Shown: piece by piece, positions 1 through 1,789 of the stretch
How the letters are laid out: every line of letters begins with the position of its first letter
Numbering within the stretch: position 1 is the first letter of the stretch
NCBI GenBank assembly: GCA_029936675.1
Contig: JAPYSB010000002.1
Location: 44,184 to 108,183, forward strand
Origin: Dehalococcoidia bacterium
GTDB taxonomy: Bacteria > Chloroflexota > Dehalococcoidia > Lucifugimonadales > UBA826
Direction: 5' to 3'
Length of the DNA stretch: 64,000 bases
Notes under the pieces: generated by a model
The model's database searches: none
What the model was told of the DNA's origin: nothing
The model's input: only the letters and a program-made list of their open reading frames with translations
Program-made: the position numbers and the translations under genes

Positions 1-138
1 GTTGTAATCCGTAAGCGCCATCGCAGGATAGGCTAGTTCATAAGCTCTAGTAAGGAGTTCATCTATATGAGAAGCCCCTTCACCAAAAGAGTAAAAACTA
101 TGCGCATGTAGTTCCACATATTTAGAGCTAGCGTACAT
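1..138 (-). CDS. dnaE2: Error-prone DNA polymerase III alpha subunit (DnaE2), N-terminal PHP fragment, truncated by window edge
   Basis: Reverse complement of 1-138 reads MYASSKYVELHAHSFYSFGEGASHIDELLTRAYELAYPAMALTDYN, a typical PHP-domain N-terminus (VELHAHSxYSFxxGAS...ALTDxN). TGATG overlap with the upstream imuB-like stop. Not in the ORF track. Confidence 0.85.
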   Translation of the reverse strand, partial: MYASSKYVELHAHSFYSFGEGASHIDELLTRAYELAYPAMALTDYN

Positions 139-1607
139 CAGTAGTTTTGACGATACCAACGTTTTCCAACGCTATCTTTAAATATCGTCATGATCTTATG
201 GTCAGATGTACTGATACTATAATAGGTACGACTAATCGGATCCGGAATCCACCATAAGTCAATCTTCCAGATGTCCAAAACTTTAATTTTTAGATTATCT
301 CCATTAGATAAAGATAGAAATTTAGGAATATTATTTAGCTCTTGAACTGTGATTTTTTGAGGTAGATTAATAGACATAACAGAAAATTTTGTATCAGGAT
401 CTATAGAAATCTGCAGTGCCCTTCGCTCAGGAACCGGATGCTCTGCATTCACAGTAAGGAGCTTGTAAAGAGAGTTTTTAGCAGGAATTTTCTTGCGAAT
501 GTGACGGTCTATTTTAATCAACTGATCTCTCTTTTCGTCAAGGTGATCGCGAATTTCTTTGAAGGCTCGATACTGAATACCGTGCTCTCCAACAAAATCT
601 GAAATTGTAATCGAGATATCTTCAACTGATCCGGGCAATTCCAAATCTTCTAACTCTGATCTAAGCAATAAACATAAATCATTGGAATTACCAAGCGGTC
701 TTTTTAAGATCAAATTCTTGGCCCAAACCTGAGATCCAACAAGTTCAAGCAAAATAGATATTTTTCTAACATATTTACTTTTCAACACAGGTCGCATAAA
801 AGCCCTCTGTATCAAAAATTCTAACGTTGTAAAAAGAACTGAAAGAGAATCAGAAGGAAATGGTAAAGATACGTGTTCGGTTATATTCTGAACAGGTTTA
901 TTAAAAGAAATGTAATCACTATTTTCAGCGCGAGACAGCGATAAAGCTCTACAACCGTCATCTCCAAATTTAGAATAAATCAACCCGTAATCTTGAGCCG
1001 CTATATCACCAATTGTATGCATTCCAAATTTATGGAAATTAATAATGGTGCTTCTTTTAACAGGTAGTATATCTACACTGAAAGTAGCTAAAAAAGCATC
1101 GATGTTTTTCAATATTTTTGTAGACCCACCGGGGGTAGAAGAAAGGGCTGCGGCATATGCAGAAAATTTATTTACAGATATCCCAAATCTTGGTTCTAGA
1201 AAATATGGGATTGAATCCAATATATGAGTAACTAATTTAGCTTCACCTCCATACATTTCACTCAACCCATGGATATTTATATAAATAATCCCCAAACTTG
1301 ATCTCTCAATTTTTGGAGTTATTCGTGCAATATTTGATATGACTGAAGCGAAGATTTGTTCATAATTTTTACGGTCAAATTCAAATCTTACGGAATCTGG
1401 ATATCTAGACAATGCCGATGAAAGTGGATTTCCTTTTGAAATATTTTTTATAGTTTTAGAAAAATCTTCAACTACAGGTAATTTAGAAGATTCGCAAGAA
1501 TATAAAATAACCTCATTATCGGAGAGTTCAGGGTTTTTATTAACCTCTGATTTAACCCCAAAATGAGTTATTAAAAGGCATCCGATTTTAGAATTTCTGT
1601 TAGCCAT
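138..1607 (-). CDS. imuB: ImuB-like Y-family DNA polymerase-related protein
   Basis: 489 aa. Y-family-like segments (GIIYINIHGLSEMYGGEAKLVTHILDSI, FGISVNKFSAYAAALSS, fingers/helix-hairpin region) directly upstream of dnaE2. Confidence 0.75.
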   Translation of the reverse strand: MANRNSKIGCLLITHFGVKSEVNKNPELSDNEVILYSCESSKLPVVEDFSKTIKNISKGNPLSSALSRYPDSVRFEFDRKNYEQIFASVISNIARITPKIERSSLGIIYINIHGLSEMYGGEAKLVTHILDSIPYFLEPRFGISVNKFSAYAAALSSTPGGSTKILKNIDAFLATFSVDILPVKRSTIINFHKFGMHTIGDIAAQDYGLIYSKFGDDGCRALSLSRAENSDYISFNKPVQNITEHVSLPFPSDSLSVLFTTLEFLIQRAFMRPVLKSKYVRKISILLELVGSQVWAKNLILKRPLGNSNDLCLLLRSELEDLELPGSVEDISITISDFVGEHGIQYRAFKEIRDHLDEKRDQLIKIDRHIRKKIPAKNSLYKLLTVNAEHPVPERRALQISIDPDTKFSVMSINLPQKITVQELNNIPKFLSLSNGDNLKIKVLDIWKIDLWWIPDPISRTYYSISTSDHKIMTIFKDSVGKRWYRQNY

Positions 1608-1650: not shown

Positions 1651-1680
1651 ATTATAATAGAACTTATGTTCTGTTTTCAA
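1651..1680 (-). promoter_or_regulatory. Sigma70-type promoter with embedded LexA/SOS box
   Basis: Minus strand TTGAAA-N18-TATAAT. The spacer holds the palindrome AGAAC-ATAA-GTTCT (plus-strand 1659-1672), matching the GAAC-N4-GTTC Gram-positive-type SOS box, about 50 nt upstream of imuB. Confidence 0.75.
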
Positions 1681-1789
1681 TACTAGAATAATAGGCTGTT
1701 TTTGTGTATTTCAACAAAAATTGACTGTGTTTCTAGCTAATGTTATGTTCAGCGTAGAAAAATATATTTTCACAATAGCGAGGGACAAA

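Follow-up and report, generated by a model that had tools for sequence, protein, structure and literature searches.

A conserved putative LexA operator in the promoter of an ImuA-less imuB-dnaE2 operon of a SAR202 bacterium

The window analysed here, that is the whole stretch of 64,000 nucleotides, opens with two adjoining genes on the minus strand. The gene at 138..1607 encodes a 489-aa protein matching the Pfam IMS family (E 1.4e-8), which we annotate as ImuB, a predicted catalytically dead homologue of Y-family polymerases. In an alignment with Pol IV (7yll), SIDE meets a stretch of ImuB without the catalytic Asp-Glu pair, and the protein thus appears to combine a Y-family fold with the loss of the catalytic acidic residues, as expected of ImuB (PMC6511836). 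It also has the C-terminal extension of an ImuB, with about 150 conserved residues past the part aligned with Pol IV, ending in WKIDLWW...FKD..GKRWYRQNY. Positions 1..138 (minus strand) hold the 5' end of dnaE2, a gene that continues outside the window to G000:C4:41172 and whose ATG shares bases with the stop codon of imuB (TGATG). Its product is best described by the model PRK05672 (756 bits, below the curated 939) and carries the active-site motif PDIDIDF, which points to the error-prone C-family polymerase DnaE2. The two genes adjoin in 28/28 of the imuB loci that we compared. With the genes adjacent and the start of one overlapping the stop of the other, the imuB-dnaE2 operon proposed in the first-pass annotation is well supported.

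No ImuA was found in the genome by a RecA-family search, in which a divergent ImuA could be missed; the only matches were recA and an archaellum-type KaiC-like ATPase. Since the canonical imuA-imuB-dnaE2 cassette includes imuA, we class the present operon as an ImuA-less variant. We also observed that this bacterial genome contains archaellum-cluster-like genes (FlaG/F-, FlaH- and FlaI-like) at L018:436-3247 (G000:C10:2248-5059).

Reading the minus strand directly from 1680 to 1651 gives TTGAAA ACAGAACATAAGTTCTAT TATAAT. The -35 element TTGAAA (1675..1680) agrees with the consensus at 5/6 bases and is kept as TTGAAA or TTGATA across the genus, while the -10 element TATAAT (1651..1656) agrees at 6/6 and is found in 7/8 genomes of the genus. 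Within the 18-bp spacer between them lies the palindrome AGAAC-ATAA-GTTCT (1659-1672, minus strand), which forms the putative LexA (SOS) operator AGAACATAAGTTCT and is the sole perfect GAACN4GTTC in the window. This inverted repeat GAAC-N4-GTTC thus overlaps the promoter elements, as in the operator class to which we assign it. The expected transcript start is about 35 nt upstream of the imuB ATG at 1607. On the other side, a divergent gene starts at 1790 and probably has a promoter of its own, TTGACT-17-TATGTT (1721..1749, plus strand), clear of the SOS box. The promoter layout is exactly the one previously described for this site, with the palindrome inside the spacer.

We then compared 28 imuB loci, which represent six families of the class, 12 of them from the same family and 16 from elsewhere in the class, mostly in metagenome assemblies. 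ImuB orthologues were found in 12/16 family genomes, and in all 12 the box occupies the same spot in the promoter, even though ImuB identity falls to 35%; a single one of these boxes has C instead of A as its outermost base. Of the 16 further full-length ImuBs of the class, 14 are preceded at 50-105 bp by a perfect GAACN4GTTC; of the other two, one has a single-mismatch box and the second (L118) a half-site only. The box that the first-pass annotation wished to see upstream of orthologous imuB genes is therefore present well beyond the genus. In four genomes of the same family with sizes of 1.2-1.4 Mb (G001, G002, G003 and G015), lexA was found and imuB was not detected, which suggests that the mutasome was lost upon genome reduction in these smaller genomes.

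The genome as a whole (2.19 Mb, 53 contigs, 96% complete) shows no enrichment of the motif. From base composition, AGAACN4GTTCT is expected 0.07 times per window and about 2.5 times per genome, and the genome has 5. GAACN4GTTC occurs 18 times and the reversed pattern used as a control 27 times; for AGAACN4GTTCT at one mismatch or fewer, the figures are 52 and 97. Because these counts lie below those of the control, the motif by itself proves nothing, and the case has to be carried by position and conservation. Among the sites with at most one mismatch, of which about 50 of the 52 were listed with their surroundings, nearly all those listed are intragenic, in long reading frames. Just two of the matches listed are perfect, intergenic and accompanied by good -35 and -10 elements, namely the imuB site and one at a gene for an 83-aa protein (P0004). 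Two perfect sites at C46:34170 and 34237 were considered as a lexA operator and rejected; they fall within an ORF of 338 aa, apparently for dihydroorotate dehydrogenase, and are therefore chance matches.

A single LexA is encoded in the genome (P0003, C4:112941-113591; TIGR00498, 169.7 bits with a cut-off of 110.95). This repressor combines a winged-helix domain with a self-cleaving S24 domain, in which the cleavage site Ala-Gly (A95-G96) and the catalytic Ser137/Lys176 motifs of an S24 peptidase can be recognized. By score, its closest PDB entry is 3k2z, which we take to be the LexA of Thermotoga maritima. A first box, AGTACACTTGTTCT, lies in the -35/-10 spacer of the lexA promoter, and a second, GGAACATTAGTGCT, follows after another 26 bp; both are imperfect. 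Of the 12 genomes of the family with a lexA that we found, 11 keep the pair and the twelfth keeps the first box. At recA, AGAACATTTGTATT lies against the -35 element TTTACT, has two mismatches and is conserved across the family. In this genome the same motif is thus found in imperfect form both at lexA, as for autoregulation, and at recA, the lexA box being one base and the recA box two bases off the strict palindrome. Outside the family, a box is present within 250 bp of 28/28 lexA genes of the same class (19 perfect and 9 with one mismatch), when 0.048 chance boxes per lexA gene are expected at one mismatch. We also observed upstream of recA (L056:1375-1425) a second, outward-facing pair of half-sites, GTTCTAA-N12-15-TTAGAACA, in most of the family.

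These data bear on several proposals of the first-pass annotation. Its assignment of the palindrome to the GAAC-N4-GTTC operator class is supported by the LexA gene and by the related boxes at lexA and recA. Neither of the two outcomes that it named as fatal, a genome without lexA or a motif missing from lexA/recA and orthologous imuB genes, was encountered: an apparently complete LexA is encoded, as is an apparently complete RecA, and the promoters carry boxes. However, the strict motif itself is absent from lexA and recA, where only related boxes occur. The same holds for its use as a probe for the regulon, which recovers imuB but misses lexA and recA and returns mostly intragenic matches.

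Could the palindrome be a functionless accident of an AT-rich promoter? The genome-wide counts, which do not exceed the control, and the roughly 2.5 strict sites that any such genome should hold would be compatible with this idea. Yet a box kept at 26 of 28 imuB loci from six families, with every one of the 26 perfect sites in the 125 kb compared lying directly before imuB, excludes chance, and the same box recurs at lexA in 28/28 cases. As far as sequence comparison can tell, the conservation data have already refuted this reading, to which we give practically no weight. The GAAC-N4-GTTC half-sites might instead be shared by another repressor, such as a phage-like regulator of the XRE or S24 type, since helix-turn-helix regulators can have palindromic targets in common and the genome has at least one XRE-like gene. 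We hold this to be improbable, because a box at lexA throughout the class and near recA is the signature of LexA, and in this genome a LexA-type DNA-binding domain was found in P0003 alone.

The box also sits in an intergenic region shared with the divergent gene at 1790, which encodes a beta-propeller-repeat-like protein, and might mainly serve that gene, or both. About 50 bp past the box, however, a promoter-like sequence belonging to that gene can be recognized, and the box accompanies imuB even in distant genomes in which the sequence upstream of it is different, so that control of the divergent gene appears very improbable. Taking position and conservation together, we conclude from the comparative sequence data that the box at 1659-1672, within the imuB-dnaE2 promoter, is a genuine LexA SOS operator under strong conservation. 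Our preferred reading, with a probability of about 0.95, is that an ordinary GAAC-N4-GTTC LexA operator controls an ImuA-less ImuB-DnaE2 mutasome in SAR202.

LexA binding, steric repression, induction by damage and mutagenesis are here inferred from the protein families named above. As long as a cell is undamaged, RNA polymerase would be kept from using the promoter by a LexA dimer sitting between the -35 and -10 elements, and imuB and dnaE2 would stay silent. Upon DNA damage, RecA filaments formed on single-stranded DNA would stimulate LexA to cleave itself at A95-G96, and the operator would be freed. Both proteins would then be made from a single mRNA, ImuB presumably as an inactive scaffold of the Y family and DnaE2 as the working error-prone polymerase, and together they would carry out mutagenic translesion synthesis.

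The second intergenic perfect site belongs to P0004 (G000:C47:102215-102463), an 83-aa protein of no known family with the promoter TTGACAGAACANNTGTTCTGTTCTAAAATGTTCTAAA. The locus, including the 37-bp predicted SOS promoter, spans L014:1480-1808 (G000:C47:102138-102466). This promoter is nearly invariant over 16 copies from 15/16 family genomes and six SAR202 genera, one copy being seen only from the second base block on and two having one or two changes; unlike its promoter, the protein drifts to about 44-45% identity. Searches of Pfam, NCBIfam and PDB sequences returned nothing usable for P0004, and all the relatives found come from SAR202 or from Chloroflexi bins close to it. Among named records, SAR202 cluster bacteria are nearest, and the isolate SAR202-II-177A matches at 100%. 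The protein is predicted with moderate confidence (pLDDT 77) to fold as an SH3/KOW-like barrel, and its fold matches are weak (best E 0.02). It is also present in genomes in which imuB was not found. On these sequence features, P0004 is the best candidate here for a new SOS gene, and its role might correspond to that of UmuD/YolD or of a division inhibitor. We regard it as an even bet that SAR202 has a very small LexA regulon, the tightest promoter of which drives a new SOS effector, the 83-aa SH3-like P0004.

The regulon scan covered sites near the strict motif. As a further target, dinB showed no convincing box in nine relatives. Two other sites are worth recording. A AAAACTATAGTTCT site in L144 lies shortly before a 201-aa ORF. 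A candidate small RNA is found at L169:791-915 (G000:C48:45086-45210), where the promoter reads TTGACA-box-TATTAT with a one-mismatch box and is followed by a conserved 90-nt sequence with an GCCGCUCCUCC...GCGGC hairpin, then a terminator, and no reading frame. The RNA itself would span L169:828-915. This candidate has no Rfam match; its covariance model detects it in one genus besides its own and nowhere else in the order, and a single more distant match was set aside since it looks like terminator similarity only. Because only one half-site of its box is conserved in relatives, control of the candidate RNA by LexA appears doubtful.

The SAR202 lineage is abundant in the deep ocean and for the most part uncultured. 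For this group, the footprint-backed box gives an SOS regulon motif, roughly AGAACAnnnGTTCT with changes tolerated in one half. It also predicts inducible mutagenesis in streamlined marine genomes: in this SAR202 bacterium, DNA damage should switch on mutation-prone repair. P0004 adds a testable candidate for a new SOS gene. For the field of SOS regulation, the arrangement itself is an expected one.

Like the small SOS proteins of the YolD/UmuD type, P0004 is small, has a putative SOS-box promoter and is predicted to form an SH3-like beta barrel, YolD and UmuD being said to have SH3 cores (PMC6511836). It differs from both in that it has no Pfam match to either even at E 10, and in that no polymerase gene adjoins it. 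In the literature that we searched, we found no description of the SOS regulon of SAR202; DnaE2 has been recorded in Chloroflexi (PMC3919608), and RegPrecise has one collection for Chloroflexi regulons and another for LexA, which spans more than 25 taxonomic groups (PMC3840689). The LexA of Gram-positive bacteria has GAAC-N4-GTTC as its established motif (PMC3323433). With the SOS box of Bacillus subtilis and Mycobacterium, the box described here shares the half-sites, the 4-bp spacing, the presence of LexA and the location in promoters of lexA and recA-type SOS genes (PMC3323433). It departs from that box in its outer bases A...T, in the imperfect copies at lexA and recA, and in its host, a SAR202 Chloroflexota. 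Whenever present, the imuA-imuB-dnaE2 cassette is persistently regulated by LexA (PMC3323433), and variants without ImuA have already been described (PMC6511836). The present operon differs from the canonical cassette in having no imuA alongside. The host group is little studied and the arrangement is a known one: as in the canonical cassette, imuB and dnaE2 are adjacent, a putative LexA box lies in their promoter, and a predicted dead Y-family protein is paired with DnaE2.
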